Origin: Styela clava
Taxonomy: Eukaryota; Chordata; Ascidiacea; Stolidobranchia; Styelidae
Assembly (NCBI RefSeq): GCF_964204865.1
Contig: NC_135250.1
Span: 9,176,001 to 9,240,000, forward strand
Length of the DNA: 64,000 nucleotides
Reading direction: 5' to 3'
Part shown: piece by piece, positions 1 to 52,760 of the stretch
Layout: every line of letters starts with the position of its first letter
Numbering within the stretch: the stretch's first letter is position 1
Notes under the pieces: model-generated
Told to the model about the DNA's origin: nothing
The model's database searches: none
Seen by the model: the letters and a program-made list of their open reading frames with translations, nothing else
Made by a program: the position numbers and the translations under genes

Positions 1-2810
1 TAGCAGAAAACGTATAAAAGTGCGTTTCGACGTATTCATCTGCGATTCCTAAAATATCCCACATTAGGAGTAGAAATATTTTTATTGTAGATTAAAGTAC
101 ATTAAATTTACTTGTTTTTAGAATGTAGAAAATAATGCGCATCCATATTAGTTCAAAAGATATAAAGCAAACAATGTCCATAATTAGCGAAAAATGTAAA
201 AAAATTGCGGTATAAGCAATTCAACTGCAATTTTCTAAAATATCCCACATTAGGAGTAGAAATATTTTTATTGTAGTTTAAAGTACATTAAATTTACCTG
301 TTTTTAGAATGTAGAAAATAATGCGCATCCATATTAGTTCAAAAGATATAAAGCAAACAATGTCGATAATTAGCAAAAAATGTAAAAAAATGGCGGTATA
401 AGCAATTCAACTGCAATTTTCTAAAATATCCCACATTAGGAGTAGAAATATTTTTATTGTAGAATAAAGTACAATAAAATTACTTGTTTTTAGAATGTAG
501 AAAATAATGCGCATCCATATTAGTTCAAAAGATATAAAGCAAACAATGTCCATAATTAGCGAAAAATGTAAAAAAATTGCGGTATAAGCAATTCAACTGC
601 AATTTTCTAAAATATCCCACTTTAGGAGTGGAAATATTTTTATTGTACATTAAACTATATTAAATTTACTTGTTTTTCGAATGTAGAAAATAACACGCAT
701 TCATATTAGTTCAAAAGATATAAAGCAAACAATATCGATAATTAGCAAAAAATGTAAAAAAATGGCGGTATAAGCAATTCAACTGCAATTTTCTAAAATA
801 TCCCACATTAGGAGTAGAAATATTTTTATTGTAGAATAAAGTACAATAAAATTACTTGTTTTTAGAATGTAGATAACAATGTGCATCCATATTAGTTCAA
901 AAGATATAAAGCAAACAATGTCGATAATTAGCGAAAATTGTAAAAAAAATTGCGGTATAAGCAATTCAACTGCAATTTTATAAAATATCCCACATTAGGA
1001 GTAGAAATATTTTTATTGTAGATTAAAGTACATTAAATTTACCTGTTTTTAGAATGTAGAAAATAATGCGCATCCATATTAGTTCAAAAGATATAAAGCA
1101 AACAATGTCGATAATTAGCAAAAAGTGTAAAAAAAATGGCGGTATAAGCAATTCAACTGCAATTTTCTAAAATATCCCACATTGGGAGTAGAAATATTTT
1201 TATTGTAGAATAAAGTACATTAAAATTACTTGTTTTTAGAATGTAGATAACAATGTGCATCCATATTAGTTCAAAAGATATAAAGCAAATAATCTCGATA
1301 CTTCGCAAAAAACGTATAAAAGTGCGTTTCGACGTATTCATCTGCGATTCCTAAAATTTCCCACATTAGAGTAGAAATATTTTTATTGTAGATTAAAGTA
1401 CATTAAATTTACTTGTTTTTGGAATGTAGAAAATAATGCGCATTCATATTAGTTCATAGATATAGAGCAAACAATGTCGATAAGTAGCGAAAAATGTAAA
1501 AAATTTCGACGTTTCGACGTATTCATCTGCGATTCTCTAAGATATCCCACATTAGGAGTAGAAATATTTTTATTGTAGATTAAAGTACATTAAATTTACT
1601 TGTTTTTAGAATGTAGAAAATAATGCGCATCCATATTAGTTCAAAAGATATAAAGCAAACAATGGCGATAATTGGCGAAAAATTTGTAAAAGGGCGTTAC
1701 AGGCAATTCAATTGCGATTTTCTAAAATATCCCACATTAGGAGCAGAAATATTTTTATTGTAGATTAAAGTACATTAAATTTACTTGTTTTTAGAATGTA
1801 GAAAATAACACGCATTCATATTAGTTCAAAAGATATAGAGCAAACAATGTCGATAAGTAGCGAAAAATGTAAAAAATTTCGACGTTTCGACGTATTCATC
1901 TGCGATTCTCTAAGATATCCCACGTTAGGAGTAGAAATATTTTTATTGTAGATTAAAGTACATTAAATTTACTTGTTTTTAGAATGTAGAAAATACTGCG
2001 CATCCATATTAGTTCAAAAGATATAAAGCAAACAATGTCGATAATTAGCGAAAATTGTAAAAAAAATTGCGGTATAAGCAATTCAACTGCAATTTTCTAA
2101 AATATCCCACATTGGGAGTAGAAATATTTTTATTGTAGAATAAAGTACATTAAAATTACTTGTTTCTAGAATGTAGATAACAATGTGCATCCATATTAGT
2201 TCAAAAGATATAAAGCCAATAATCTCGATAAGTAGCGAAAAACGTATAAAAGGCGTTTCGACGTATTCATCTGCGATTCTCTAAGATATCCCACATTAGG
2301 AGTAGAAATATTTTTATTGTACATTGAAGTATATTAAATTTACTTGTTTTTAGAATGTAGAAAATACTGCGCATCCATATTAGTTCAAAAGATATAAAGC
2401 AAACAATGTCGATAATTAGCGAAAATTGTAAAAAAAAATTGCGGTATAAGCAATTCAACTGCAATTTTCTAAAATATCCCACATTGGGAGTAGAAATATT
2501 TTTATTGTAGAATAAAGTACATTAAAATTACTTGTTTTTAGAATGTAGATAACAATGTGCATCTATATTAGTTCAAAAGATATAAAGCAAATAATCTCGA
2601 TACTTAGCAGAAAACGTATAAAAGTGCGTTTCGACGTATTCATCTGCGATTCCTAAAATATCCCACATTAGGAGTAGAAATATTTTTATTGTAGATTAAA
2701 GTACATTAAATTTACTTGTTTTTAGAATGTAGAAAATAATGCGCATCCATATTAGTTCAAAAGATATAAAGCAAACAATGTCGATAATTAGCGAAAAATG
2801 TAAAAAAACT
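1..2810 (-). repeat. Left satellite array, ~186-bp monomer
   Basis: Head-to-tail tandem repeat. The anchor cccacattaggag recurs at 58, 244, 430, 616, 802, 989 and 1176, giving steps of 186-187 bp, about 15 monomers in view. The array starts before the window and ends near 2810, where the monomer breaks into unrelated sequence. Two monomer types alternate: one carries the segment gcggtataagcaattcaac, the other tttcgacgtattcatctgcg. The monomers are the reverse complement of those in 14273-20035. Short open frames of about 60-70 codons inside it follow the repeat period and are not genes. Confidence 0.97.
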
Positions 2811-4110
2811 TTTCGGTGAAATTAAAACAGAGCACACTCAAAGTGCAAACTGAAAAGAATGCGTCGTTCACAGCGAAATAGCACAGTTACGTGTAGCCCG
2901 CCCCATATGTGCCTGCCGGTTTATGGTGAATATTTTGCAAGTCCTATTTCAAATATCGAGCCTTAATCCGTAGTCAGCAGTACCCGCATTTGAAAATAGA
3001 ACATTAGAAATCGTGAGAATTAATTTTGAAAGAAGTGTAACTCGCGGATGTCAGTAGCGTCAAAATCGTTTATAGGTACAAAAACACGATCGCATGTAGC
3101 GCCGATATAATGCATTAAATGGGAAACTATTACTTGGATTTTAATGTTAAACAAGCTGATTTTTAATTGCCATTCAATGATAATTAACATGCGTCGTGAT
3201 TAGTGGTGGGCAAATAGTTTTTTTAGTCGAATTATTCGAATATTTTCAACGAACACAACACCGAATAATGAGTATTGTCATTTCAAACAACCGTATTTGG
3301 GATGTCGGCCGCCGAAACGATCGCCGTGACAACTTTATTTTTTGGAATTTACTTGAAGACTGAAAACTTCGCAACAATGCAGCGATTTTTATTTCCTAAT
3401 TTTGTCATAATCCAAGGCCGCAGTAAATAATTTAGTCACGGCGATCCTTTCGGCGGCTTGACATCCCAATTGATGATGATAAACTCTATTAAAGCACTTT
3501 TTATCCACTAGTAAATATTAATTCTCATGCAACGGCGGATATCGCAGTTTAATTTTTATTTTTTAAACAGAAATTTGATTTCACATCGGCGACGGTGTCA
3601 AAGACAACTATTAAGGAGTGCATTCATAACACAAATTAATTCTATGCTGCTTTTTATCTTTTTTGCAGGATTTGTATCACAGTTTGTAAACTAATTTCCC
3701 AATTTGAAGCGAACAGTATTACTGACCTCGGAATGCGATATATGTGAAGCTGATAGTTGACTTTTTTATGCTTTTAATTTTATATCGTGTCCGTGTTACT
3801 TTCGTATTAAATAATAATAATTAAAAACTCCGCAAATTGGTAATCTCTCTAATACTCAGTGTTGAGAATTAACGTAACTCAGCTTTGGAATAAACACTGA
3901 TACTAAATACTTGAATAAATCTGCAATAATGGCATTTCTACGTGGTCAAAATAATATGTTTCCCCGTTCCCAATATCTCGGAAAATTTACATAGAATACA
4001 AAATTTACCAGTCGTACTTATCTGGTTCGACAATTCTAAATTTACAAAAACAGTGTTGACTCGCTTTCATTCAAAATTGGAAATTGAAAAATATGATAAT
4101 CCTTACCCGT
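2811..4110. other. Spacer between satellite and minisatellite
   Basis: Unique-looking AT-rich sequence between the left satellite array and the 9-bp minisatellite. It contains one small inverted-repeat element (3297-3469). No reading frame, splice pattern or RNA gene was recognised. Confidence 0.5.
3297..3469. mobile_element. Small MITE with ~33-bp terminal inverted repeats
   Basis: The left end 3297-3329 begins ttgggatgtcggccgccgaa. The right end 3436-3469 is its near-perfect reverse complement, ending ggcggcttgacatcccaa. The core is about 105 bp and has no coding capacity. The size and the high identity of the two ends fit a non-autonomous DNA transposon. No clear target duplication is visible, so the superfamily is not assigned. 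Confidence 0.8.
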
Positions 4111-4275
4111 AAGTGGGACACGTGGTACACGTGGGACAAGTGGTAGACGTGGTACACGTGGGACAAGTGGGACACGTGGAACAAGTGGTACAAGTGGGAC
4201 ATGTGGGACAAGTGCGACACGTGGGACAAGTGGGACATGTGGTACACATGGTACACGGCGACAAGTGGGACACGA
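4111..4275 (+). repeat. 9-bp minisatellite (GTGGGACAC/GTGGTACAC type)
   Basis: About 18 copies of a 9-bp unit, for example aagtgggac, acgtggtac and acgtgggac, in register. Because the unit is a multiple of three it stays open in several frames and produces low-complexity Val/His/Gln or Leu/Val/Pro frames on both strands. These are artefacts, not proteins. The array abuts a dispersed repeat at 4279-4556. Confidence 0.95.
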
Positions 4276-4278
4276 CAT

Positions 4279-4556
4279 TTTTGAGACACCGGTATTTGTG
4301 TGTTTGTTTGTTTGTCTGTTAGATGAACGCGATATCTCACGAGGGCGAGGTTGAACCTGCTCCAATTTTACATGTGCATTCATCATATCTCGGACTAGAA
4401 GCCTATTGATTTTGAATGAGTTATGTCGTATAATTAGCGAGTTATTAATTAATTACTTAATATATTTTTTTAGAATTAGCAAGTTATTAATTAGGTAATT
4501 GGTTTTTTTTGCGGTCGATTGATGAGTCTTCGGTCTCCGACCGATATTCTCGTTTT
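4279..4556 (+). repeat. Dispersed repeat, copy 1 (second copy in an NVL intron)
   Basis: From gtttgtttgtctgttagatg through tatctcacgagggcgaggttg to gtcttcggtctccgaccgat this stretch matches, in reverse complement, 51288-51547. No reading frame survives. It could be the 3' end of a non-LTR element or an unclassified SINE; nothing in the sequence decides. Confidence 0.75.
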
Positions 4557-6742
4557 TCTATTTTAAATTTTTCTTTTTGATGTAGTGATGCATAAGCTAT
4601 TATTTATGGTTTTTATTCGTTTGGTGTTAAAAAATGAAATATTTTGATTTTCTATAAAATTATTTGCTTTATTTTAATTAACAGGATATATTTCTTACAT
4701 GATGAGCTGGTATAACGGCGATTTATAATGACGATCGAAACTTTGGAGAAACGAACTTTTAAGCCACCGTATGAAGATGTACCTGCCTAATTATAATTCA
4801 ATTATCAGCCCAACAAGTGAAAAAGTGTCCTTGTGGTTTTTAAATCGTCTTATATGTTTATTGATAATTTTTCTCCGTCGTGCAATAAATGTTCATGTTC
4901 CTCGGCAGTTATTAATTTGGGTTTATATGCGTATGAATATTGCTACACGACTATCTAATATAACTTATTTTTCTTATTCTTATTCATTATTATTAAAAAT
5001 TCTTATTTTGATCAATTCATGAGTCTTGCTGCACAATAACACAATGTAAAATGTTTCAACTATGACAAGAGAAAAGCAAGAACACGCACATAAATAATGG
5101 CTATCGATTTGTTCCCAATAGTAAACCGTGGACACTCCAAGAACAATAGGGAAGTCAAGTTAACATTAGTCAGTCAGTAGTAACAGTCAATTAATGTATA
5201 TCCCGCAGTTCAGTGAGTAGCAATTAACAAGTAGATAAAATAATTTCACGCTGGTATCCCGGGACTCCGATAACAGCGTCTGTGCGGTTCATGCCGGGGT
5301 AGAGGCTACAATATTGGAGAATTACTTTGAAATGAAGTAGATACCAATATTGAACTTATAATCGTATATAATTTTATTGATAAATAAAACGATACGAAAG
5401 TACATTTTATCAATGTGCAACTATATTCTTGAATTAATAGGTAAAAACTAGTAGACAAAGAGCTTCAGTCGCAATTTATTTAATTACACACATAAAGAGC
5501 AATAAACGATTGCGTGTTTTCAAGTAAAACTATTTTGTTTAGCGATTTTGAAGACCATAACCTAGTTAAGTCCATTGTCAGTTTTCTGTAGCCGATGTTG
5601 CGCAGCTTGTGTCGAGTGAATGCCCCTCAAAATACAGGAATACGATGGATATGAATAGTGAATAACGTTAAGCATTCATACAACGCCAGTGACGATATCA
5701 AATAATTTTCGAGATAAAGGTTGAGTGTTGATTACAAAACGTAATTGGTAGATTTCCATTTGCTGATAGTTTACGAATTTATCATAGAGCCAAGGCTGAT
5801 AAGATCAGATGATCGTAGAAATAAGCAATTCAACAAAACTTATCATGATTTCGTTCCAGGTGGAGAAACCAATAATGTAAAATTACAAACATTTGATTGG
5901 AGGTATGCAATAAATTCGCATTCAGTCGATAATCGTATAAGTCAAAAGCATGGATGACAAAGTTATTCCGTTAACGCCCGGATCATCAGTGAAGCGCTGT
6001 CACAAATTCCCGCGGGAATTTTATATTAAAACAACCCAACTCTTAAAATATTTGAATTCAATCCGACATCTTATGTAGTGAAAACGTCACAATAAATGTT
6101 ACCGTGTCTATTTCGGTTACAATGACCAATCAGTAATTGATGATGTAACAATTGCTATTTATGCACTCGCTTAGACACTCCTTCTGATCAGACGGATATT
6201 CAACCATGATTGTAAACATTAACTCGGTTTTGCGAGACATTTGTCAGTTTTCAATTGTATTTTCAAAAATTAGCTAGCTCTAAATTATCATTGTGTTTTT
6301 AGAGGAGCTTTAGTTCAGTTGAAATAATCAGAATTTAGTCCCGATAAATCGGTGGAACACTTGGATAGGATTAGCTATCTGTACTTGTAAGTGGTACGTG
6401 CTTGAATATTTTAAATAAAAATGATGGTTTTTGACATGTAAACCAGTTTGTAAGCGCCTACTCTACGATACACTCTCACAATAAGTATCAGAAATTTTGC
6501 TATAGTACAGTCTAGACTCTAGACTCTAGAGAATTTTTCTGGGGTCGGGGAAACAGCCATTATTACGGTCGTAAACTTTGGTGTTTAAAATTAATTTTGT
6601 TCACTGAACAACAAGTACATATTTTTCATCAGTCTGCTCCGGGAATTTCTGTAAATGCTCAGAAGTTCTCATTTTGTTATTTTCTGCTTTCTGGTAAATC
6701 TTTATTTAGATAATTGTTTTTTAACATATCAGCTTACAGAAA
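4557..6742. other. Upstream region of the transposase ORF
   Basis: No convincing coding exon was recognised. A 70-codon open frame at 5745-5957 is unsupported. The tract just before the ORF ends in ttttttaacatatcagcttacag directly before aaaATG, which looks like a 3' splice acceptor. The long ORF may therefore have an upstream non-coding or short coding exon in this interval. Confidence 0.45.
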
Positions 6743-9700
6743 ATGAAGTACTTTTGGCGTTCGAGAAGGAGAGATAAGAGAATCGTTATCAACGTTGTGG
6801 AGTATTTATATTCAAACAATATACCGGATTTACGCTCACAGAAACATCAAGACAACTTTCTGACAACGCATAAATATTGGCATACGAGATCCCTGATTTG
6901 TCGTCGACAACTTCTTTGTCATTTTCTCAATTCACACAGTCAACAGATTGAAGAAACTCTAGGGCGGAAATCAGAAATTCGTAATTCATTTCATACCTTC
7001 CCAGCAAGAAGTATGTCTGATAACATTCCTCCAAAAACTAGTACAATTGACGATATACGATTGATATCAAGCCCAAAACAGATTTCGCTGGACGATATGA
7101 ATCGTGAAATATTGTCTGGCAGTGTTCCCACAGGAGACGATGACGAACATTTTAACATTTCTAAAGTTACAGATAATGAGGGACCATTTAAAAAACCTGA
7201 TTCTGACAGCAAATCACGAATATATTGCATATGCAGAAAGCAGTATGATGGAACGCTCATGATTGAATGCCAGAATTGTGAAGAATGGTTCCACCCAAGA
7301 TGTATTTTTTCCAAGGATTGCAGTGCACCTCAGTCAGCGAGAGAGTGGGAAAGATCCATGTTTTTATGCAAAGGGAGCGATAAAAACATATTTTTTCATA
7401 GTGACCAAAAACCATATGGCGGAGTTGTTAAAGTCACTGCAATTAACGACACGGAGATAGATAAATGTAACACTTCAACCCAAAAAGCCGTCGTACCAAT
7501 ACAACACCTGCCAAGTTTGATCAATCATGGCCAACCTATCATGAGATTAAAATTGAATAAAATCAGCAGCTCACTACAGAACGAATTGTTCGAAGTATCG
7601 AATAGTAATATTTTAAGTCAACATTGTGACCAAAATGCAATTAGCTCCGGTTCGAAAACGGACGCAACACACTTGATGATCCGCAATAAAATGATTTCAA
7701 AGGAATCCAAATCTCCAATAGAAAAATTGAGCAAACCATCAGATTCACCTATTCGCCGTGTTTCAAGTTCAACAAAGGACAACAGTCGGAGATTGATTGT
7801 CAGTTCGGATTCATCGATTGAATTAAATTCAGAAGGATCTCATGGCCATACAGAAGAACTTGTTGAAACTTCTTCGACTTCACCCAATATGCAAATAAGT
7901 ACATCACAGTCCGAAGCACTAGACTCTACATCTCCATCAGGATTGTCAATCTCTGGCTCTGCATACAAACGCCGCTGGCCATCTCGCAAAAGTATTTTAA
8001 AAATTGGCGAATATGGAAAAAGTTTTATAAGGTCAGTAAGGCGTGCCGATTACCTGCAAGTTAGAGGTTCATTCAAATTATCAATGTCAAAATGGCACAG
8101 TCTGATAAAGTCTCGTTCAGATCATAAGTTCGGAAACCAGTTATACATACCAACATTTTTAAATCAATTCCGAAAAATCTATTGCGAATGTGTCCCATGT
8201 ATATCCTCACACTATCTTCGCAAAATTACAACACGACGGACTAAAGGCGTAGGAAGTGGTCACTATGAGGGATCAGTGGGTATGTATTGCAGCCACAAAA
8301 ATTGCTGTGGATGTAAAATTGAAGGGAAAATAAGCATTTTTTCTGAAGCGGACCACATCAGTTGTATTGTAAATGTTAATGGTGTCCGTCAACATCGGTC
8401 ACATTGTATTCGACGAAGACCAGTGCGTAACATACAACGAAAAAAATTGCGAAAAAAATTAATTCATAGCACAGCTACAAAAGTCCAAAGAGATCTTTAC
8501 AGTAATATGACAGAGCAAGAGAGATATCACGGTTCCTACACATATGTACCAAAAAAAGAAACTTTGCGTAAAATCAAAAGTGGTAGCAAGAAAACGGAAA
8601 AAAACTGGTTTGAGAAGCTTGATAAAATGATGAAAAAGAAGCGACATCAATTTGTTAGGAGGTGTAGCATTCAACCACCCGGAGTCATCCTTTACACGAA
8701 ACAACAGATGATTGCCTACAAAACGATTTCTCCGTATGATATAGTTTATTTCGACGCGACGGGTAGCATTCTAAAAAGGAAAGCGGGAGTGAAAGATTTT
8801 CAGATATACACTCTATTAGTGAGAAATCCATACAAAGGAAATTTAGCATTGCCTGTTGCCACACTTGTGACGAACGATCACCATGCACTGAATATCGGAC
8901 ATTTTTTGGAGACTTTTGGGGCTGATTGTTTGCGGTATGTTAACTGCCAACATAAACCTTCAATGATCATGATTGATGGATCTATGGCAATGTGGATCGC
9001 AACACTTAAAGCATTTTGTAATGAAACGAGGTTGGATTACTATAAGCGGTGTTATCGTATCGTAACAGGGTCCGCTACTGTTGAGGATTCGAATCGAACT
9101 ATTGTCCATAATTGTATGAGCCATTCTATGCATGCCGCCATGATTTTATGCAACAAATATTACCACACCAAGTATAAGCTTACCACAATGCATTGGATAT
9201 ACCGTTGCTTCGCTAGTCGAACTATTGCAGAACTAGATGAAATTGTTAAAGGCATAATGATCGTTACGACCTGCGAATACACTTCACCATTCATCAGACA
9301 AAAATTTGAATTACTACAGCAAAATTTAACCACCAATAAAAGTTTTGATGATTTCGAAGGAAATGACAACGACCCGGTGCATGCAGATAAAGAAGCTGAT
9401 TTTGTTGGCGGAAATACAAACAGGCTGTCCGAAACAAAGTCACCATTTTATACAAGATATGCCAACATATTCAAAAACTTTTGCCAATCCGAGGATTACA
9501 TGAGACACCTTGAAACCAATAAAAAACAGGCAAAAAACAAATACTTCTCAAAAAAGTTTTTTCCAATATTTCTGAAAGTAATAATCAGTAGAATACCCTC
9601 AACTTCTCAACTTCTGATCGGAGACTTATCCCGCCACGCAAATGCAACATCTGTTACCGAAACGTATCGAAAATTCTCGGAACAATTTTCAAGTCTTCGA

Positions 9701-12577
9701 CAAGAGGATTTACAAAATATGTATACTGACAATCTCACGCAAGGTATTATTGAACAGCATTTTGGTCAACTTAAGGGGACATATTTCAAAGGGACACGGT
9801 TTTCAAATTTATACAAGTTTACAAAAAAATATCGCAGAGAAATCAAAATATCCGAAAAGCAATTCTCCGACGTAATTCTGCACAAGGGTGGTAAAAAAGT
9901 CAAATCTATCTCCAAAAGCGACACACGAAAGAAAAAACAGTATAGCCCGTTAGTCCAATCAAGGTTTAAAAAAAGAAAATGCTCTGGAAAAGGCTTTTAT
10001 ACAACGGGTGCTGCCGCCAAAAAAATAAAATTCGACAACGTTGTAGAAGATGACGAAGATATATCTGCAGCTTCCGTATTGAATAGAGCTGTCAATGAAA
10101 TCGAGTGTTCAGCGAGTGAACCGGATGCTGGTACACTAGTGGTATTAGACGACGACTCAGACACATCCGGCAATTCCAAACTGAAGCACGATGACAAGAA
10201 AAGTATTATGGATTATGACAAGTTTCTAACCGAAACTAATATAAAGTCCTCAAATATGAATATCGCAGATTTGAACCTGAATACGTTAACTTTTCTACCG
10301 TTGGATAAAATGAAGAATTTTTCGCACGAAATGTGGTATAGTTTATGCTCGACACAAGAAAATTTACTTAAAACTGCAATAATACTTCAAAATGCATCTA
10401 CCTTGCAATATCTTGACATATTAACATTGTGTTCATCACCAACGCAAGAAAGTCTCATGAGCGCGAGGCAATATTTGGATAAAACGCACGAAGCCGGCTG
10501 GATAACAAGGGATATTGTAGATGCATACACGGAATTGGTAGTATTTCTTTGTAATAAAAAATCGGGCGCCCAAGCTGTGGGTTGCTGTGACAGCCTGTTA
10601 ACAGAGCACATGATGAAAGGAAAGAAAATAAAGAATACCGAAATGTTGCGAAAAAGAATATGTCTACAAAATTTTTCGACCAGCATCAGACAAGATACGT
10701 TTTATCCGCTGCTTTGGTCCGGTCATTTCATGCTGCTGCATATGTGTAGAAATACACAAACACTTTCATTAATTGATTCCGCGAATAGGAAAAACGAAGC
10801 GGTAAAATCGTGTATAAACAAGAACTTCATTCCAATTCTCAAAGAACTTTCTGGTATCGAAAATATCAAATTTAACCAGCGGTGCATCGTCCAACAAGAC
10901 ACTAGTAGCAGCTGTGGTACATGCGTGTGTATGTGCTTGGATATAATTGGTTTCCAATATACTGGTAGCAATTTGAAATATAGCCTGGAAAATTATCGTC
11001 ATTGGATATTATTGGCTCTTTGCTTCTGGAGTGATAAATGTGATGTTCCAGTGAAAGATGCATTTTGCAGTATATTTCGTGGTCATATTTTCATGGGCCT
11101 GCAAAACGTTGGGAATACGTGTTGGTTCAACAGTGTACTACAGGCGTTAAACTATTGCAAATCGAAGCAAGGTACCTCAGTAATTTGGAGTGAACTTTCG
11201 GGGGACATGCAAAATATAAAAATTATGTTTCAATCAATGTCAAATCTGCATCGGATGAAACCCGACTTTTTAGAAAACGCAATAACTAACGTTTGCAGAA
11301 AACTCGGCTGGGAATTTGGCCTTCAATATGACGCTCAGGAGTATTTGGCAGTATCTGACATTCTGTCCTTTTTTCACCAGTCTGGGATTTATAACGAATT
11401 GGCTCTTCAAGAGATAAAGACGTGTAGTATATGCAACAAAGAAATTTCAAGTTTATGCAGCGTATCAAATATGCTCTTTATTCCAATGTTTGACGAAGTT
11501 CCCGACAATTCAAGCATTTTGGATTACGTTAATTATTTTAAAAATCATCATTCCGGCCTCGATTGTTCATCGTGCGGTGGTCAAAAATCTATAAAGTACC
11601 AAAATCAATTATTGAACATTCCTACGTTATTAATAATATGGATGCAAAGAACATCAGAAAGTGGTATCAGTTCCACAAAAAAAATAACGGCAAATTGGAC
11701 ATTGGATATTCCTGTAAAAAATCAAACGGAAGCAAAATCATGTGATCTTATAAGTGTTATAGTCAGGAGATCAAAAACATTGAGTTCTGGGCACTACATC
11801 ACTTACAACGTACTGGACGAACATGTGGTCAAGTGTGATGATAACTATGTCACGAATATGACCAAAGAAACAGCTATGAAAGATATTTCTACAAACGGAT
11901 ACGTGTTTTTTTACATGTCTCGAGAATATTTAGAACTTCAAACAACTCCATGTCGGCATCGTCACCTCAAAAAATTGGATCAACCGGGGAAAATTCTTCC
12001 ACAGACGTCCACTGCACTTGAAAGTATACACGACCAACAACGAATTACTACAAATACTGTAAACCAGACTTTGCGAATGGGGAATTCTATTGAAATCAAA
12101 CATGATCTAATATGGGAGCAGAAAAATACTGAAGTATTAGATGAAATCATGGAACGTATGATTACTTTAGCGAATCTCAGTTATGTGAAATCAAAAGGAT
12201 TGAATATTGCTCATCGACACATGCTTTTTCTGAAAAACGAACAAACTGCCTTAAAAAAAATAAACTATTGCCCGAATTTTATCGGCCATGGCGTTGACGA
12301 AGACACTTTATATAATTTACGAGCGTTTCTCCTCACCAAATTTTGCGTCCGAAGTCTTAAGTGCCGCAAAGCATTTCACGCGACTCCAATGATCCCATTC
12401 CATAATCCAGAAATAATAAAAAACAGTTCGGACTTAGGCTTATCATTCATATCCAAAAAATTGTCTGTCAAGAAATATATAGACCAGGTTATATTGAATG
12501 AAGCCGTCATCATATTTGTCATGTTGAAAACAAAAAATTGCAGTTATGAAGATATTTCACAAACCTTATTTCAGTAA
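6743..12577 (+). CDS. Giant transposon protein: PHD-like finger, Zn finger, DDE transposase, Ulp1-like and USP-like proteases
   Basis: A single open frame of 1944 aa. What is seen, in order: (1) PHD-like finger ~160-212 with C162, C164, C176, C179, H184 and C187, ending FLCKG without the usual last Cys. (2) Zinc finger ~505-556 with C516, C521 and H551/H554, WRKY/GCM1-like. (3) DDE core with YFDATGS (D671), IMIDGS (D745) and GIIEQHFG (E1004). (4) Lys-rich nuclear-localisation tract ~1048-1095. (5) C48 domain with W1253, H1328, D1345, Q1385 and C1391 in QQDTSSSCG. (6) C19/USP domain with NVGNTCWFN (C1460), zinc knuckle pairs C1561/C1564 and C1608/C1611, and GHYITYN (H1684) with D1699/D1700. 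The C-terminal ~230 aa are unrecognised. All key catalytic residues are intact, so the copy could be active. The layout recalls MULE/KDZ (Zisupton-like) transposases, but the superfamily is inferred. It sits between two inverted satellite arrays. The ATG follows a likely splice acceptor, so an upstream exon is possible. Confidence 0.88.
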   Translation: MKYFWRSRRRDKRIVINVVEYLYSNNIPDLRSQKHQDNFLTTHKYWHTRSLICRRQLLCHFLNSHSQQIEETLGRKSEIRNSFHTFPARSMSDNIPPKTSTIDDIRLISSPKQISLDDMNREILSGSVPTGDDDEHFNISKVTDNEGPFKKPDSDSKSRIYCICRKQYDGTLMIECQNCEEWFHPRCIFSKDCSAPQSAREWERSMFLCKGSDKNIFFHSDQKPYGGVVKVTAINDTEIDKCNTSTQKAVVPIQHLPSLINHGQPIMRLKLNKISSSLQNELFEVSNSNILSQHCDQNAISSGSKTDATHLMIRNKMISKESKSPIEKLSKPSDSPIRRVSSSTKDNSRRLIVSSDSSIELNSEGSHGHTEELVETSSTSPNMQISTSQSEALDSTSPSGLSISGSAYKRRWPSRKSILKIGEYGKSFIRSVRRADYLQVRGSFKLSMSKWHSLIKSRSDHKFGNQLYIPTFLNQFRKIYCECVPCISSHYLRKITTRRTKGVGSGHYEGSVGMYCSHKNCCGCKIEGKISIFSEADHISCIVNVNGVRQHRSHCIRRRPVRNIQRKKLRKKLIHSTATKVQRDLYSNMTEQERYHGSYTYVPKKETLRKIKSGSKKTEKNWFEKLDKMMKKKRHQFVRRCSIQPPGVILYTKQQMIAYKTISPYDIVYFDATGSILKRKAGVKDFQIYTLLVRNPYKGNLALPVATLVTNDHHALNIGHFLETFGADCLRYVNCQHKPSMIMIDGSMAMWIATLKAFCNETRLDYYKRCYRIVTGSATVEDSNRTIVHNCMSHSMHAAMILCNKYYHTKYKLTTMHWIYRCFASRTIAELDEIVKGIMIVTTCEYTSPFIRQKFELLQQNLTTNKSFDDFEGNDNDPVHADKEADFVGGNTNRLSETKSPFYTRYANIFKNFCQSEDYMRHLETNKKQAKNKYFSKKFFPIFLKVIISRIPSTSQLLIGDLSRHANATSVTETYRKFSEQFSSLRQEDLQNMYTDNLTQGIIEQHFGQLKGTYFKGTRFSNLYKFTKKYRREIKISEKQFSDVILHKGGKKVKSISKSDTRKKKQYSPLVQSRFKKRKCSGKGFYTTGAAAKKIKFDNVVEDDEDISAASVLNRAVNEIECSASEPDAGTLVVLDDDSDTSGNSKLKHDDKKSIMDYDKFLTETNIKSSNMNIADLNLNTLTFLPLDKMKNFSHEMWYSLCSTQENLLKTAIILQNASTLQYLDILTLCSSPTQESLMSARQYLDKTHEAGWITRDIVDAYTELVVFLCNKKSGAQAVGCCDSLLTEHMMKGKKIKNTEMLRKRICLQNFSTSIRQDTFYPLLWSGHFMLLHMCRNTQTLSLIDSANRKNEAVKSCINKNFIPILKELSGIENIKFNQRCIVQQDTSSSCGTCVCMCLDIIGFQYTGSNLKYSLENYRHWILLALCFWSDKCDVPVKDAFCSIFRGHIFMGLQNVGNTCWFNSVLQALNYCKSKQGTSVIWSELSGDMQNIKIMFQSMSNLHRMKPDFLENAITNVCRKLGWEFGLQYDAQEYLAVSDILSFFHQSGIYNELALQEIKTCSICNKEISSLCSVSNMLFIPMFDEVPDNSSILDYVNYFKNHHSGLDCSSCGGQKSIKYQNQLLNIPTLLIIWMQRTSESGISSTKKITANWTLDIPVKNQTEAKSCDLISVIVRRSKTLSSGHYITYNVLDEHVVKCDDNYVTNMTKETAMKDISTNGYVFFYMSREYLELQTTPCRHRHLKKLDQPGKILPQTSTALESIHDQQRITTNTVNQTLRMGNSIEIKHDLIWEQKNTEVLDEIMERMITLANLSYVKSKGLNIAHRHMLFLKNEQTALKKINYCPNFIGHGVDEDTLYNLRAFLLTKFCVRSLKCRKAFHATPMIPFHNPEIIKNSSDLGLSFISKKLSVKKYIDQVILNEAVIIFVMLKTKNCSYEDISQTLFQ

Positions 12578-14272
12578 ACTGATTTTGTCCACTATTTGGA
12601 GTAATGTATGTTTGTTCGCAACCACGCATCGAGATCGGGGTCCATTTGACGACTTCATTACCCCCCCCCCTCTTTATCATTGGCATATGTCTGTAAGTCA
12701 GAATTATTTCATGCATGATATGAACCGAAATTTGCAGATTGCACTGATTTCATGTCTTTTCAAGGTATAATTTATTATCCCCAGGTTATTTTTTATGTAA
12801 TTAATATCAATTATCAACTGTTCACTTCTAAATACATTATATATCATGCTCATTTCCTTGTATTTTTGTTCATGACTGTCGATTTGGATTTATGCCATGC
12901 TGCGTAGCTTATTGCTGTTGTTTGCTTGATAATTAATTTTACATACGCCATTGCGTATGTGCCATGTGTTTATTTTATAAACTTATCATGCTATATTATG
13001 TCCTTACATTTTTGTACAGTTGTATTTTTGTGTCCAGCAAAAAATATCTGACAAGCTTGTTAATTCTGTTCAATTTTCATTGGCATTTTGCATCTTGCGT
13101 CATCACTAAAATATATATAATCTTTGATATACTTATTGGCCGTAATTTGCGATATTCTGTTAAGTTCTAGTTTTAATTTTAATTTAATATTCACATTCTA
13201 TTGTTTAACAGTGTTTATTTATTGCGTGTCTAGTTTCACGCAGAGTAGCCCAAACCATAAAATAAACAGTACCCTTCAGCTTGCGATTCCATCCAATTAT
13301 ATATGAATGAGCAATTCTGACTCACACGATAATTTATCATTGTGATGGTCTCGCCATTAAAATTGTTTGCTTCAATTGTTTGTTTTACGCAAGAGCCAGC
13401 AGATCACGTGTATTTCAGTTCAAACTAACACAGCTGTATATTAGTATTGTTACATATTTGATGGACTTTTTAAGATACCGATTTTACATGTGTCGATTAA
13501 ACATGTTTTCTTCCACTTTTCATAATATTCATATCCAATTCTGATTGTACATTATTTCTATACGCCACTATCCAATTTAATTTAGTGTTATACTGTTTTG
13601 GCTGATTGTTGTGGGTTCCTTGAACCTTTAATGTGTGCTAATTTATGTAACGATACTACTTCTACTGCATTGTAAATAAAAATACAGCATGAAACAATGT
13701 ACTCATGTATTAGGTCAAAAATGAAAGTGTGTAAGTTATGTTGGGCGGTCATAAATTCTAGTCAAACGCTTTTAAATTTGAATTTGCACTACAGCATCCG
13801 AAATTGGATACTTGCGATATTCACATTATGAGTCCAGTAAATATTGGTGGCCTTATTTAAGAATGCATTGCTATTTTACTTATTATTCATGGAACGTCTC
13901 AATATTGGTACATGCGCAGAGCACTTCATTTTCAGAAAAAAAAAACGAATGTCATTAAAAAAGATATTTGAATGTTTATTTTTTATATCTTTGGGGGGGG
14001 GGGGAAATTTTCAAATACCTAAAAGTAAAATAAAAACGATATCTATTTATCTTTAAATACCGCGTTTAAAATAATTGCCAATCACAGATTATTAATCATT
14101 TAAAACGAGTAGGAAAAATTTGTTGTTATTTGGCCCTATTGACTAGGTCTTGTTTTAAGTTGTGGGCTTATATTGAAATCATTTTAAATTAAAACGAGGT
14201 CTAATTTTCCGGCTAGGTCTCATTTTTCGCAGAAACCCGGTAAAAGTAATGCTTTAGATACATAAGTCACAG
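12578..14272. other. 3' flank of the transposase ORF
   Basis: AT-rich, no further domain-coding frame. A candidate polyadenylation hexamer lies in gtaaataaaaat near 13676. It holds a C10 run near 12661 and a G12 run at 13993-14004, both prone to length change. The last 150 bp (about 14110-14250, with the phrases ggccctattgactaggtc and cggctaggtctcatttttcg) resemble the repeat text at 23600-23760. The satellite begins at 14273. Confidence 0.5.
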
Positions 14273-17200
14273 AATATTTCTACTCCTAATGTGGGACATT
14301 TTAGAGAATTGCAATTTAATAGAATAGAAACGCCCTTCTTTACGTTTTTCGCTAATTATCGACATTGTTTGCTCTATATCTTTTGAACTAATATGGATGC
14401 GTATTATTTTCTAAATTCTAAAGACAAGTAAATTTAATATACTTTAATGTACAATAAAAATATTTCTACTTCTAATGTGGAACATTTTAGAGAATTGCAA
14501 TTTAATAGAATAGAAACGCCCTTCTTTACGTTTTTCGCTAATTATCGACATTGTTTGCTCTATATCTTTTGAACTAATATGTGTGCGTGTTATTTTCTAA
14601 ATTCTAAAGACAAGTAAATTTAATATACTTTAATGTACAATAAAAATATTTCTACTCCTAATGTGGGACATTTTAGAGAATTGCAATTTAATAGAATAGA
14701 AAAGCCCTTCTTTACGTTTTTTGCTAAATTTCGAGATTGTTTGCTTCATATCTTTTGAACTAATATGGATGCGTAATATTTTCTACATTCTAAAGACAAG
14801 TAAATTTAATATACCTTAATGTACAATAAAAATATTTCTACTCCTAATGTGGGATATTTTAGAGAATCACAGATGAATACGTCGAAACGCCCTTTTATAA
14901 GTTTTTCGCAAAGTATCGAGATTGTTTGCTTTATATCTTTTGAACTAATATGGATGCGCCTGGTTTTCTACATTCTAAAAACAAGTCAATTTAATTTACT
15001 TTAATCTACTATAAAAATATTCCTACTCCTAATGTCGGATATTTTAGAGAATAGCAGATGAATATCGTCGAAATGCCCTTTTATACGTTTTTTGCTAAGT
15101 TTCGAGATTGTTTTCTTTATATCTTTTGAACTAATATGGATGAGTATTATTTTCTAAATTCAATAGACAAGTAAATTTATTGTACTTTAATACACAACAA
15201 AAATATTTTTACTCCTAATGTGGGGTATTTTAGAGAATCGCAGATGAATATCGTCGAAATGCCCTTTTATACGTTTTTCGCTAAGTTTCGAGATTGTTTG
15301 CTTTATATCTTTTGAACTAATATGGATGCGTATTATTTTCTACATTTTAAAAACAAGAACAAGTACATTTAATGTACTTTAATGTACAATAAAAATGTTT
15401 CTACTCCTAATGTGGGAATTTTAGAGAATTGCAATTTAATAGAATAGAAAAGCCCTTCTTTACGTTTTTTGCTAAGTTTCGAGATTGTTTGCTTCATATC
15501 TTTTGAACTAATATGTGTGCGTGTTATTTTCTAAATTCTAAAGACAAGTAAATTTAATATACTTTAATGTACAATAAAAATATTTCTACTCCTAATGTGG
15601 GATATTTTAGAGAATCGCATATGAATACGCCGAAACGCCCTTTTATAAGTTTTTCGCAAAGTATCGAGATTGTTTGCTTTATATCTTTTGAACTAATATG
15701 GATGCGCCTGGTTTTCTACATTCTAAAAACAATTTAATTTACTTTAATCTACAATAAAAATATTCCTACTCCTAATGTCGGATATTTTAGAGAATCGCAG
15801 ATGAATATCGTCGAAATGCCCTTTTAGACGTTTTTTGCTAAGTTTCGAGATTGTTCGATTTTTATCTTTTGAACTAATATGAATGCGTATTATTTTCCAA
15901 ATTCTGAGGACAAGTAAATTTTTTTTACTTTAATGTACAATAAAAATATTCCTACTCCTAATGTGGGATATTTTAGAGAATCGCAGATTAATACGTCGAA
16001 ACGCCCTTTTATACGTTTTTCGCTAAGTATCGAGATTGTTTGCTTTATATCTTTTGAACTAATATTGATGCGTATTATTTTCTACATTCTAAAAACAAGT
16101 AAATTTAATGTACTTTAATGTACAATCAAAATATTTCTACTCCTAATGTGGGATATTTTAGAGAATCGCATATGAATACGCCGAAACGCCGTTTTATACA
16201 TTTTTTGCTAATTATCGACATTGTTTGCTTTATATCTTTCGAACGAATATGGATGCACATTGTTTTCTACATTCTAAAAACAAGTCAATTTAATTTACTT
16301 TAATCTACAATAAAAATATTCCTACTCCTAATGTGGGATATTTTAGAGAATCGCAGATGAATATCGTCGAAATGCCCTTTTATACGTTTTTTGCTAAGTT
16401 TCGAGATTGTTCGCTTTATATCTTTTGAACTAATATGGATGCGTATTATTTTCTAAATTCTAAAGACAAGTAAATTTATTCTACTTTAATGTACAATAAA
16501 AATATTTCTACTCCTAATGTGGGGTATTTTAGAGAATCGCAGATGAATATCGTCGAAATGCCCTTTTATACGTTTTTCGCTAAGTTTCGAGATTGTTTGC
16601 TTTATATCTTTTGAACTAATATGGATGCGTATTATTTTCTACATTTTAAAAACAAGAACAAGTACATTTAATGTACTTTAATGTACAATAAAAATGTTTC
16701 TACTCCTAATGTGGGAATTTTAGAGAATTGCAATTTAATAGAATAGAAAAGCCCTTCTTTACGTTTTTTGCTAAGTTTCGAGATTGTTTGCTTCATATCT
16801 TTTGAACTAATATGGATGCGTAATATTTTCTACATTCTAAAGGCAAGTAAATTTAATATACTTTAATGTACAATAAAAATATTTCTACTCCTAATGTGGG
16901 ATATTTTAGAGAATCGCATATGAATACGCCGAAACGCCCTTTTATAAGTTTTTCGCAAAGTATCGAGATTGTTTGCTTTATATCTTTTGAACTAATATGG
17001 ATGCGCCTGGTTTTCTACATTCTAAAAACAATTTAATTTACTTTAATCTACAATAAAAATATTCCTACTCCTAATGTCGGATATTTTAGAGAATCGCAGA
17101 TGAATATCGTCGAAATGCCCTTTTAGACGTTTTTTGCTAAGTTTCGAGATTGTTCGCTTTATATCTTTTGAACTAATATGAATGCGTATTATTTTCCAAA

Positions 17201-20035
17201 TTCTGAAGACAAGTAAATTTTTTGTACTTTAATGTACAATAAAAATATTCCTACTCCTAATGTGGGATATTTTAGAGAATCGCAGATTAATACGTCGAAA
17301 CGCCCTTTTATACGTTTTTCGCTAAGTATCGAGATTGTTTGCTTTATATCTTTTGAACTAATATTGATGCGTATTATTTTCTACATTCTAAAAACAAGTA
17401 AATTTAATGTACTTTAATGTACAATCAAAATATTTCTACTCCTAATGTGGGATATTTTAGAGAATCGCATATGAATACGCCGAAACGCCGTTTTATACAT
17501 TTTTTGCTAATTATCGACATTGTTTGCTTTATATCTTTCTAACGAATATGGATGCACATTGTTTTCTACATTCTAAAAACAAGTCAATTTAATTTACTTT
17601 AATCTACAATAAAAATATTCCTACTCCTAATGTGGGATATTTTAGAGAATCGCAGATGAATATCGTCGAAATGCCCTTTTATACGTTTTTTGCTAAGTTT
17701 CGAGATTGTTCGCTTTATATCTTTTGAACTAATATGGATGCGTATTATTTTCTAAATTCTAAAGACAAGTAAATTTATTCTACTTTAATGTACAATAAAA
17801 ATATTTCTACTCCTAATGTGGGATATTTTAGAGAATCGCAGATGAATACGTCGAAACGCCTTTTATACGTTTTTCGCTACTTATCGAGATTATTTGCTTT
17901 ATATCTTTTGAACTAATATGGATGCGCCTGGTTTTCTACATTCTAAAAACAAGTCAATTTAATTTACTTTTATCTACAATAAAAATATTCCTACTCCTAA
18001 TGTCGGATATTTTAGAGAATCGCCGATGAATATCGTCGAAATGCCCTTTTATGCGTTTTTTGCTAAGTTTCGAGATTGTTTGCTTTATATCTTTTGAACT
18101 AATATGGATGCGTATTATTTTATACATTTTAAAAACAAGAACAAGTACATTTAATGTACAATAAAAATATTTCTACTCCTAATGTGGGACATTTTAGAGA
18201 ATTGCAATTTAATAGAATAGAAACGCCCTTCTTTACGTTTTTCGCTAATTATCGACATTGTTTGCTCTATATCTTTTGAACTAATATGGATGCGTATTAT
18301 TTTCTAAATTCTAAAGACAAGTAAATTTAATATACTTTAATGTACAATAAAAATATTTCTACTCCTAATGTGGGATATTTTAGAGAATCGCAGATGAATA
18401 TCGTCGAAATGCCCTTTTATACGTTTTTCGCTAAGTATCGAGATTGTTTGCTTTATATCTTTTGAACTAATATTGATGCGTATTATTTTCTACATTCTAA
18501 AAACAAGTAAATTTAATGTACTTTAATGTACAATCAAAATATTTCTACTCCTAATGTGGGACATTTTAGAGAATTGCAATTTAATAGAATAGAAACGCCC
18601 TTCTTTACGTTTTTCGCTAATTATCGACATTGTTTGCTCTATATCTTTTGAACTAATGTGGATGCGTATTATTTTCTACATTCTAAAGACAAGTAAATTT
18701 AATATACTTTAATGTACAATAAAAATATTTCTACTCCTAATGTGGGATATTTTAGAGAATCGCAGATGAATACGTCGAAACGCCTTTTATACGTTTTTCG
18801 CTACTTATCGAGATTATTTGCTTTATATCTTTTGAACTAATATGGATGCGCCTGGTTTTCTACATTCTAAAAACAAGTCAATTTAATTTACTTTTATCTA
18901 CAATAAAAATATTCCTACTCCTAATGTCGGATATTTTAGAGAATCGCCGATGAATATCGTCGAAATGCCCTTTTATACGTTTTTTGCTAAGTTTCGAGAT
19001 TGTTTGCTTTATATCTTTTGAACTAATATGGATGCGTATTATTTTATACATTTTAAAAACAAGAACAAGTACATTTAATGTACAATAAAAATATTTCTAC
19101 TCCTAATGTGGGACATTTTAGAGAATTGCAATTTAATAGAATAGAAACGCCCTTCTTTACGTTTTTCGCTAATTATCGACATTGTTTGCTCTATATCTTT
19201 TGAACTAATATGGATGCGTATTATTTTCTAAATTCTAAAGACAAGTAAATTTAATATACTTTAATGTACAATAAAAATATTTCTACTCCTAATGTGGGAT
19301 ATTTTAGAGAATCGCAGATGAATATCGTCGAAATGCCCTTTTATACGTTTTTCGCTAAGTATCGAGATTGTTTGCTTTATATCTTTTGAACTAATATTGA
19401 TGCGTATTATTTTCTACATTCTAAAAACAAGTAAATTTAATGTACTTTAATGTACAATCAAAATATTTCTACTCCTAATGTGGGATATTTTAGAGAATCG
19501 CATATGAATACGCCGAAACGCCGTTTTATACATTTTTTGCTAATTATCGACATTGTTTGCTTTATATCTTTCGAACGAATATGGATGCACATTGTTTTCT
19601 ACATTCTAAAAACAAGTCAATTTAATTTACTTTAATCTACAATAAAAATATTCCTACTCCTAATGTGGGATATTTTAGAGAATCGCAGATGAATATCGTC
19701 GAAATGCCCTTTTATACGTTTTTTGCTAAGTTTCGAGATTGTTCGCTTTATATCTTTTGAACTAATATGGATGCGTATTATTTTCTAAATTCTAAAGACA
19801 AGTAAATTTATTCTACTTTAATGTACAATAAAAATATTTCTACTCCTAATGTGGGATATTTTAGAGAATCGCAGATTAATACGTCGAAACGCCCTTTTAT
19901 CTTTTGAACTAATGTGGATGCGTATTATTTTTTAAATTCTAAAGACAAGTAAATTTAATATACTTTAATGTACAATAAAAATATTTCTACTCCTAATAAG
20001 AGATCTTTTAGAAAATCGAAATTGAATTTCTTGAA
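14273..20035 (+). repeat. Right satellite array, ~186-bp monomer, inverted relative to the left array
   Basis: About 31 head-to-tail monomers. The anchor tactcctaatgtggg recurs at 14281, 14467, 14653 and 14839, a step of 186 bp. The sequence is the reverse complement of the monomers in 1-2810. Two monomer types are interleaved (aatttaatagaatagaaacg and gcagatgaatacgtcgaaac). Higher-order repeats are present: about 15590-16500 recurs 1299 bp later (7 monomers), and about 18170-18900 recurs 924 bp later (5 monomers). The outer end decays through a shortened monomer (about 19855-19995) into a diverged half-monomer ending near 20035. The repeated 61-codon frames inside are satellite artefacts. 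Confidence 0.97.
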
Positions 20036-20689
20036 TACACTCTGATTCTCAGCAATGTATATTTCTATATGTCGCGGTAATGGCACTTTAATGTCAGATT
20101 TTTGAAGTGAACACTGCTGGGATTTGTGGGTAAAATATTTCGCCGCAATTTCGCTAGGATCACGATGGCCATTCATTAGCTCCCCACGCTTCATCCATAG
20201 CTATCAGAGCTTACCTATAGTTAAAGATGCTTAAGTTGGATTTAGGAGTAAGTAAACTGGTAACTAAACTCCAGTAAACTAAATTCCAGACACGAACTGG
20301 AACATATATACCGTAATATTCGAAAAACCGAAAAATAACGCCGAATATTCTAATAATTCAGACGCCGCGCACCTATGTCCATATAATATATTGTCCATAT
20401 AATAGATATTATGTTTTGCTCGTTGGAGAAATAGAGAATTTTTAATTTTCCTTGAAGATGACAAACTACCGGTATAACAAAGTAAATATTTTGAGGACTC
20501 CGTTCACGTCACATTGTCTGGTCAATGATCACAAGACCTTTGCGTGAAGTGAGTGGTCTTTCAGTATGACTGCGTTTCGCGTACTATCGCGTTTTTTAAT
20601 GCGCAAATATTCATTACTAAAAATGTTAGCGGAATAAGCGTATTTCATACGCGTCTTTCATTAATTAGTATCGTAATACCGGTATCAGT
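20036..20689. other. Intergenic, nothing recognised
   Basis: No gene was recognised. A minus-strand open frame of 79 codons (19955-20194) runs into the satellite edge, has no recognisable domain and is probably chance. Confidence 0.4.
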
Positions 20690-39934: not shown

Positions 39935-40666
39935 ATGAGCATGTCACCGGTCAAATCAACAAAATTCCCTGATGAATTACCCCATGATATCCACCGTGAT
40001 TTATTGAATGAGTCTTTGGAGAATTGTAAAGTTGAAGCGGTCAAAGGCACATATGCGTATTATCATTATTTATGTGATGGAGTAGACGACAGAGGATGGG
40101 GTTGTGGTTACAGAACTCTACAGACTATGTGCAGTTGGATACATTATCATAAACAGAAAAACAGGACAAAAAGTAAAAATGAAACCACAAACAATGACAA
40201 AATTTATGATAAAATTACAGGACATGTACCATCTATATCAGAGGTTCAGCATGCATTGGTTTCAATGGGTGATAAGGAGCATTCATTTATGGGGTCAAAA
40301 GAGTGGATTGGTTCTTTCGAAATATCAATATGCATAGATTATGTGTATGACGTACCCTGTAGAATTGTGCATGTTCCCCAAGGGCAACTTGTGAATCACA
40401 TACAAAGTATAAACGAACATTTTCAAAAGTATGGCAGTCCTATTATGATGGGTGGAGATAATGATAATTCGTCGAAGGGTATTTTTGGTATCGCTAGATG
40501 CAATCAAGAAAATTGTATTTATTTAATAATTATAGATCCACATTGTACCTTTATTGATTCTGACCCAAATTTCTTAGTTAAAAATAAGTGGGTTGATTGG
40601 AGGCGAATTGATGATTTTGATAACTATTCTTTTTATAATCTTTGTTTCCCATTGTTGTCTTCGTAA
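39935..40666 (+). CDS. UFSP1: UFM1-specific cysteine protease, UFSP1 type
   Basis: 243 aa, one exon. The peptidase C78 signature is clear: D-R-G-W-G-C-G-Y-R-T-L-Q with the nucleophile C57, and I-I-D-P-H-C-T-F with D201 and H203. The S-K-E-W-I-G-S segment (121-127) and the M-M-G-G-D loop (171-175), both typical of UfSPs, are also present. UfSPs mature pro-UFM1 and remove UFM1 from substrates such as ribosomal protein uL24 at the ER. The protein has the catalytic domain only and lacks the long N-terminal half of UFSP2, so UFSP1 is the better name. It lies 1.15 kb downstream of LSM2 on the same strand, too far for a typical operon pair. A stop just before the start supports this ATG. Confidence 0.93.
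   Translation: MSMSPVKSTKFPDELPHDIHRDLLNESLENCKVEAVKGTYAYYHYLCDGVDDRGWGCGYRTLQTMCSWIHYHKQKNRTKSKNETTNNDKIYDKITGHVPSISEVQHALVSMGDKEHSFMGSKEWIGSFEISICIDYVYDVPCRIVHVPQGQLVNHIQSINEHFQKYGSPIMMGGDNDNSSKGIFGIARCNQENCIYLIIIDPHCTFIDSDPNFLVKNKWVDWRRIDDFDNYSFYNLCFPLLSS

Positions 40667-44832: not shown

Positions 44833-52760
<7,928 letters not shown>

Follow-up and report, generated by a model that had tools for sequence, protein, structure and literature searches.

A Rehavkus-like transposon of the tunicate Styela clava encodes a transposase joined to both C48-type and C19-type protease domains

A recently mobile transposon of the tunicate Styela clava encodes, in one chain, a DDE transposase domain, a C48 (Ulp1/SENP-type) protease domain and a C19 (ubiquitin-specific protease, USP) domain. 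Its gene lies in a stretch of 64,000 nucleotides analysed as a whole (the window; C1:9176001-9240000 of a 377-Mb genome in 379 contigs), where positions 6743-12577 of the forward strand form a single uninterrupted open reading frame (ORF) of 1944 amino acids (aa; 5835 bp), the runner-up in the window being 292 aa long. An earlier note, made from the sequence alone, had proposed such a fusion; the frame was confirmed by the ORF list and its translation, and the fusion is supported by residues, folds, dispersed paralogues and trees. The note had equated the feature with this ORF, but the element is far bigger, reaching from C1:9170868 to window position 20169. Our analysis is computational, and on that footing we report the element, its mobility, its domains and their conservation. 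The gene and its domains are as follows.

6743-12577, forward strand: transposase gene, 1944 aa, one open frame (ORF list, translation, comparison with the copy on contig C18)
7217-7348, forward strand: PHD finger, residues 159-202 (Pfam, PDB sequence match to PHF2)
8180-8422, forward strand: zinc finger, residues 480-560, perhaps WRKY/FLYWCH-like, a weak fold match with inferred position (alignment, Foldseek)
8660-9892, forward strand: DDE/RNase-H-like transposase domain, residues 640-1050 (alignment, folds; D671, D745, E1004 and C791xxH794 invariant)
10313-11032, forward strand: C48 (Ulp1/SENP-type) protease, residues 1191-1430 (H1328, D1345, Q1385, C1391; profile, fold)
11093-11914, forward strand: C19 (USP-type) protease, residues 1451-1724 (N1455, C1460, H1684, D1699/D1700; Pfam, fold)
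11933-12574, forward strand: conserved C-terminal region, residues 1731-1944, without assigned function (alignment)

Conservation was assessed in an alignment of nine of the eleven intact long frames of this genome; L002 (close to the window copy) and L030 (close to L029) were dropped as near-duplicates, and L033, which is split into several frames, and the fragment L003 were excluded. The aligned paralogues are 27-37% identical to the window protein, and their inter-domain linkers are poorly conserved. The catalytic residues named in the earlier note all stand where it had placed them and are invariant in the nine rows: the DDE triad (D671, D745, E1004), the C48 set (H1328, D1345, Q1385, C1391) and the C19 set (C1460, H1684, D1699, D1700), the last together with N1455. 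Equally invariant is C791xxH794, which we take to be the C/D(2)H motif of the Mutator-like element (MULE) superfamily, located between the second D and the E.

Each domain (IS256/Mutator-like transposase, SENP/Ulp1, USP and PHF2-like PHD) is supported by profiles, predicted folds or both. Pfam UCH (PF00443) matches residues 1451-1724 with an E value of 4.2e-19 over profile positions 1-254 of 254, and the predicted fold of this domain matches USP46 in Foldseek (E 1.8e-10). Both zinc knuckles of the USP had been proposed; C1561, C1564 and C1608 are indeed invariant, but C1611 is variable. For the C48 domain, a nine-row profile of residues 1190-1440 searched against PDB sequences returned SENP2 (E 1.5e-7), followed by SENP1, SENP5 and Ulp1. 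Pfam gave no match for the DDE or C48 regions of the window protein, its MULE models matched none of the nine members at E values up to 1, and a DDE profile searched against PDB sequences recovered no transposase, the best hits being unrelated enzymes (E 0.68). The predicted structure of residues 640-1030 supports placement in an RNase-H-like fold of the IS256/Mutator-like transposase type; failure of this region to take such a fold was the outcome that the earlier note had named in advance as evidence against its reading.

The two fingers upstream of the transposase domain were likewise recovered. Pfam PHD matches residues 162-202 (E 2.2e-4; 21.6 bits, below the 24-bit cut-off), the best PDB sequence match is PHF2 (E 4.6e-8), and eight of the nine aligned paralogues have a Pfam PHD match, the frame of the ninth (L021) beginning downstream of the PHD. 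Residues Y161, Y168, M173 and W182 presumably correspond to the cage of the PHF2 methyl-lysine pocket. In the finger described as CC..HxxH, seven residues are invariant (C516, H518, C521, C522, C524, H551 and C555). Foldseek matched the model of the DDE region weakly to WRKY domains (E 0.05-0.07), in a table without match ranges, and we tentatively assign these matches to the C516-C555 finger. The protein may in fact begin further upstream, in a spliced exon, since the NCBI model of a paralogue starts 46 aa before the start of that paralogue's frame; a search with simple motifs found no such exon.

Comparison of copies delimits the element and shows its mobility. Copy 1 spans C1:9170868-9196169 (25,302 bp), with its right end at window position 20169 and its left end 5.1 kb beyond the window, and its core holds a single long ORF. 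The parts within the window are as follows.

1-2808, forward strand: right-hand part of the left terminal inverted array, units of ~186 bp, extending leftwards past the window; the array occupies 5034-12808 on the fetched C1 stretch (Tandem Repeats Finder (TRF), copy comparison)
2809-14272, forward strand: non-array element core (copy comparison)
4113-4274: 9-bp tandem repeat, 18 copies, within the transposon core, open in several frames (TRF)
14273-20018, reverse strand: right terminal inverted array, units of ~186 bp, inverse of the left array (TRF, copy comparison)
20110-20169, reverse strand: right terminus, whose reverse complement resembles the left terminus (copy comparison)
20170-20178, forward strand: right target-site duplicate, matching the left flank at 8 of 9 bases (copy comparison)

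A second copy, on contig C18, is 32,378 bp long, has different flanks and is bordered by a target duplication exact at 9 of 9 bases; the ORFs of the two copies differ at 14 of 5835 bases (9 replacement, 5 silent). Because this near-identical copy combines different flanks with an exact duplication, we conclude from sequence comparison that the window family has moved recently. The arrays contain about 42 and 30 units in one copy and 26 and 31 in the other, with nearly identical cores, so the array ends of this family expand or contract quickly.

Related elements are dispersed through the genome. Among 306 candidates, 24 places were scored (grouped by us from 46 matches), and in 12 of these a frame of 1500 aa or more stays open, the matched stretch being free of stops. 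Duplications of 8-9 bp border all five elements for which both ends were found: two are exact at 9 bp (one of them the C14 element), one matches at 8 of 9 bases and two are exact at 8 bp (one of them the C9 element). No ends were located for C18b and C8; in C1b the right end alone was identified. Inverted arrays flank six elements on both sides (both window-family copies, C9, C1b, C14 and the L034 element), while for C18b, L029 and L030 the fetched DNA includes one array side, for C8 it holds one array and, at its margin, 145 bases of the other, and the short stretches of L031 and L032 show no array. The elements range from 11 to 32 kb and their arrays span about 0.6 to 8 kb, with unit lengths of 186, 178, 185 (seen as 370), 195, 185 and 126 bp. 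Units of 170-200 bp from different families do not match one another. A nucleosome-length meaning of the 178-195-bp units was considered and rejected, as one family has 126-bp units and the units fail to align between families. L029 and L030 lie on two contigs and share 99.954% identity over 6537 bp; this match extends as far as the DNA retrieved and is consistent with either transposition or plain duplication. The paralogue L032 is identical at 804 of 806 aligned positions to the Styela clava protein LOC120329920, labelled 'uncharacterized' by NCBI; at least one protein with that label is a transposase of this group. Beside the C14 element, L022 contains a 958-aa open frame (5126-7999, reverse strand), which we take to be a retrotransposon polymerase.

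Homologues were also sought in sequence databases. Residues 470-1750 alone retrieved no homologue by phmmer among 3024 candidates at E 0.01; the nine-row alignment retrieved nine proteins and a wider alignment ten, among them the above Styela protein (P0005). Two others, P0002 and P0003, from records that may likewise be of Styela, are full length, have the same domain order and keep the C48 and C19 residues; P0004 is cut inside the USP, and the remaining database homologues are fragments. A scan of viral contigs gave 44 pattern hits and no relative. The complete C48 motif (H-D-Q-C) is present in 13 of 20 sequences and the complete C19 motif (N-C-H-D-D) in 11 of 20, the others being truncated before or inside the domain or lacking it; the truncated frame P0008 has N in place of the C48 Asp, and in P0007 the E1004 column falls in a poorly aligned tail. 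Phylogenies of the DDE domain (19 rows, P0011 being too short for inclusion) and of the C48-USP region (12 rows) yield the same three groups, and from this congruence the fusion is judged to be old, predating the three groups and travelling with the transposase. In the C48-USP tree the window protein and P0003 are flagged as long branches, and the fork joining the window protein with L015/L021 is supported at only 86/89.

One lineage in the same genome carries the transposase without the USP. The L034 element (C6:15746970-15758140, 11,171 bp) has complete ends, inverted 185-bp arrays and an exact 8-bp duplication, and encodes a protein of 1288 aa with PHD (Pfam 5.7e-7), zinc finger, DDE and C48 domains that ends just after C48; no USP match better than E 0.56 was found in the whole 13.5-kb stretch around it. 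A twin at C2:27274466-27277834, seen as matches only, has nearly identical match scores. Since L034 is sister to the window protein and L015/L021 (support 95/92 and 99/97, in midpoint-rooted trees), the USP was most simply lost in the L034 lineage, and such a loss speaks for the removal of ubiquitin being useful but not indispensable. A distant relative next to the C14 element (L020, 1-7733, C14:21727000 onwards; about 25-28% identity) lies between inverted 186-bp arrays and has stops between its frames. Its C48 match (2914-3456), DDE domain (3706-5445) and PHD-like stretch (1705-1851) read DDE, then C48, then PHD-like, with the last on the opposite side compared with the window order. The C48 match stays below the Pfam threshold (0.0037; 17.6 bits, where 20.7 are required), phmmer of this frame against PDB found nothing, and no USP match was seen in L020 at E below 0.2. 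Taken across these variants, C48 looks like a core component, the USP like an accessory that was added or is dispensable, and the position of the PHD variable.

Selection was examined through point estimates of the ratio of replacement to silent change (dN/dS) per domain, for the three pairs among L024, L027 and L031 and for L024/L032; within L015/L021 and between the two window-family copies, divergence is too small for constraint to show. In the three pairs, dN/dS is 0.10-0.12 for DDE, 0.12-0.18 for the zinc finger, 0.11-0.25 for PHD, 0.17-0.24 for C48, 0.26-0.39 for USP and 0.26-0.40 for the C-terminus, compared with 0.54-0.70 for the linker. The corresponding values for L024/L032 are 0.15 (DDE), 0.31 (C48), 0.29 (USP), 0.29 (C-terminus) and 0.74 (linker), the PHD and zinc finger being saturated at silent sites in this pair and the zinc-finger ratio not computable. 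Such a comparison across copies, called for in the earlier note, points to constraint on the domains relative to the linker. The silent difference between L032 and L024 is about 0.75 in the PHD and zinc finger and 0.27-0.42 from DDE through the C-terminus, a contrast that suggests mosaic recombination between families.

We class the element as Rehavkus-like, a relative of Mutator elements and not a proven Rehavkus, because of its PHD, satellite-like inverted ends and 8-9-bp duplications, the comparison with Rehavkus being one of descriptions only. Rehavkus is described with 9-bp duplications, terminal inverted repeats of 26-400 bp, one ORF, a PHD finger and a minisatellite, in arthropods and annelids and from Repbase only, and is treated as a MULE outgroup (PMC6446971, available part); PMC13359780, in its available part, likewise places it as outgroup to arthropod MULEs. 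The PHD in the transposase, the 9-bp duplications and the single ORF are shared with the element described here, as are satellite-like inverted termini, with 164-bp units in Rehavkus-1_TC (PMC10218199, as far as available) against 178-195 bp in most families here. The differences lie in the host, a tunicate as opposed to the arthropods and annelids of PMC6446971 Table 1 (a recorded range, not a structural criterion), in element size (11-32 kb against 9.5 kb) and in the arrays of about 0.6-8 kb against the terminal repeats of 26-400 bp in that table. In the main text of PMC6446971, as available, 'protease' occurs 0 times and C48 and C19 are unmentioned for Rehavkus, and 'ubiquitin', 'Ulp', 'peptidase' and 'PHD' are absent from that of PMC13359780. 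If the assignment holds, it extends the Rehavkus-like group to tunicates.

Single proteases of these kinds are already published in transposases. The earlier note had named Ulp1-like domains in KDZ/Zisupton-like elements and some MULEs, and PMC2836005 (here and below, in its available part) reports Ulp1 in Mutator-like elements of plants, hydra and lancelet; these share with the present element a Mutator/IS256-type DDE fold and Ulp1/C48 in the same element, but no USP is reported for them there, and the present proteins have no Pfam MULE match. Ginger1 likewise combines a transposase with a deSUMOylase- or deubiquitinase-type protease and a PHD finger, having Ulp1 or OTU, in one case Ulp1 with PHD, and never OTU together with Ulp1 (PMC2836005 Table 1), but its DDE domain is of the Gypsy-integrase type. 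The Trichomonas transposase_11 protein XP_001314237.1 (cited in PMC2836005) joins a transposase to a C19 ubiquitin hydrolase; it belongs to another transposase family, and C48 and PHD are unmentioned for it in that part of the source. As the earlier note had stated, no family with both an Ulp1-type protease and a USP was found described: full-text searches of the open-licence literature, a scope that leaves Repbase outside, yielded no transposase with both protease kinds among the matches listed. What is new is their union in one transposase, and Rehavkus proteins may carry both unremarked. Drosophila FB/NOF foldback elements have long inverted ends of tandem repeats and 9-bp duplications, and are likened to the present element in these two respects by description only; NOF is not known to carry C48 or C19 proteases.

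SUMO and ubiquitin regulate the silencing of transposons, the stability of proteins and the repair of breaks. The best explanation of the whole, to which we give a probability of roughly one half, is an autonomous, recently mobile, Rehavkus-like Styela transposon that removes SUMO and ubiquitin locally. The zinc finger would bind the inverted ends, and the RNase-H-like DDE domain would cut and join DNA, leaving the 8-9-bp duplications. The PHD, with its H3K4-methyl-type pocket, may tether the transposase to active chromatin; at active start sites, Phf2 binds nucleosomes that carry H3K4me3 (PMC11790891, available part). The C48 domain, if active, would locally remove SUMO or a SUMO-like tag such as NEDD8, and the C19 domain ubiquitin, from conjugates of whichever kind it accepts. 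Host chromatin or repair proteins at the donor and target sites, the transposase itself, or both would be the targets, and the purpose might be to lift silencing, avoid degradation or license repair. Tentatively, and with the odds somewhat against us, we picture a transposase with its own chromatin-editing kit, reading H3K4 methylation and acting in cis to strip both ubiquitin and a SUMO-type tag from host factors for silencing or repair at both sites. If true, no earlier known transposon would have joined a deSUMOylating to a deubiquitinating enzyme in a single chain, and the USP-less sister lineage in the same genome would be a natural experiment on the contribution of the second enzyme. For single proteases of this class in transposases a role has only been suggested (PMC2836005); a recently mobile animal element with both, beside a lineage lacking one, makes that role directly testable. 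The satellite-like arrays, which amount to between about a third and a half of this 25-32-kb transposon, also offer a possible route from transposon to satellite DNA.

Other readings of the protease domains were weighed against this explanation. The proteases might act mainly in cis on the transposase and its partner subunits, stripping ubiquitin and SUMO and so protecting a foreign protein of nearly 2000 aa against degradation or inactivation, with host chromatin not the main target. Both lie in the transposase chain in all nine aligned frames, and the USP is under weaker constraint than DDE, as expected of a modulating function, and missing from one lineage; but retention of the PHD in eight of the nine paralogues suggests work on chromatin, and self-protection alone has no clear need of two different tag removers, which leaves this reading rather unlikely in our estimate. 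That the proteases cut a precursor into separate transposase, PHD and protease proteins would suit a long multi-domain chain with poorly conserved linkers. C48 and USP enzymes, however, normally cleave behind the terminal Gly-Gly of a ubiquitin-like fold, and Pfam finds no ubiquitin-like domain here; the window protein has four GG pairs, and the one between DDE and C48 (1049-1050) is absent from the other eight rows. Lacking both the fold and a shared GG site, such self-processing was rejected as very improbable.

Repair is a further candidate: the proteases could reset the SUMO and ubiquitin marking of repair factors wherever the element is excised or inserted, allowing the breaks to mend, as proposed for the Ulp1 and OTU domains of Ginger transposases (PMC2836005). 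Inverted arrays of such great length would make demanding substrates for repair, and their lengths differ between the two window-family copies, but ordinary unequal recombination can also alter array length, and we consider this reading unlikely. An origin of the ORF in host genes, fused in the assembly or swept up by repeats, could draw on the NCBI label of the paralogue LOC120329920 as an uncharacterised Styela protein. The earlier note had allowed that the C48 and C19 parts might belong to a separate host gene; instead, the homologues place the proteases in the transposon. With paralogues dispersed over 24 scored places, target duplications, inverted ends, the same domain order in P0002 and P0003 from other records, and congruent DDE and protease trees, a host-gene fusion or assembly artefact is scarcely credible and was rejected.

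Elsewhere in the window, positions 39935-40666 (forward strand) form a host-like gene stretch with a Peptidase C78 domain of the UFM1-specific protease type (Pfam E 1.6e-55), and two further ORFs, at 49078-49782 (forward strand) and 55422-56300 (reverse strand), contain an AAA+ lid domain and a methyltransferase domain, respectively.
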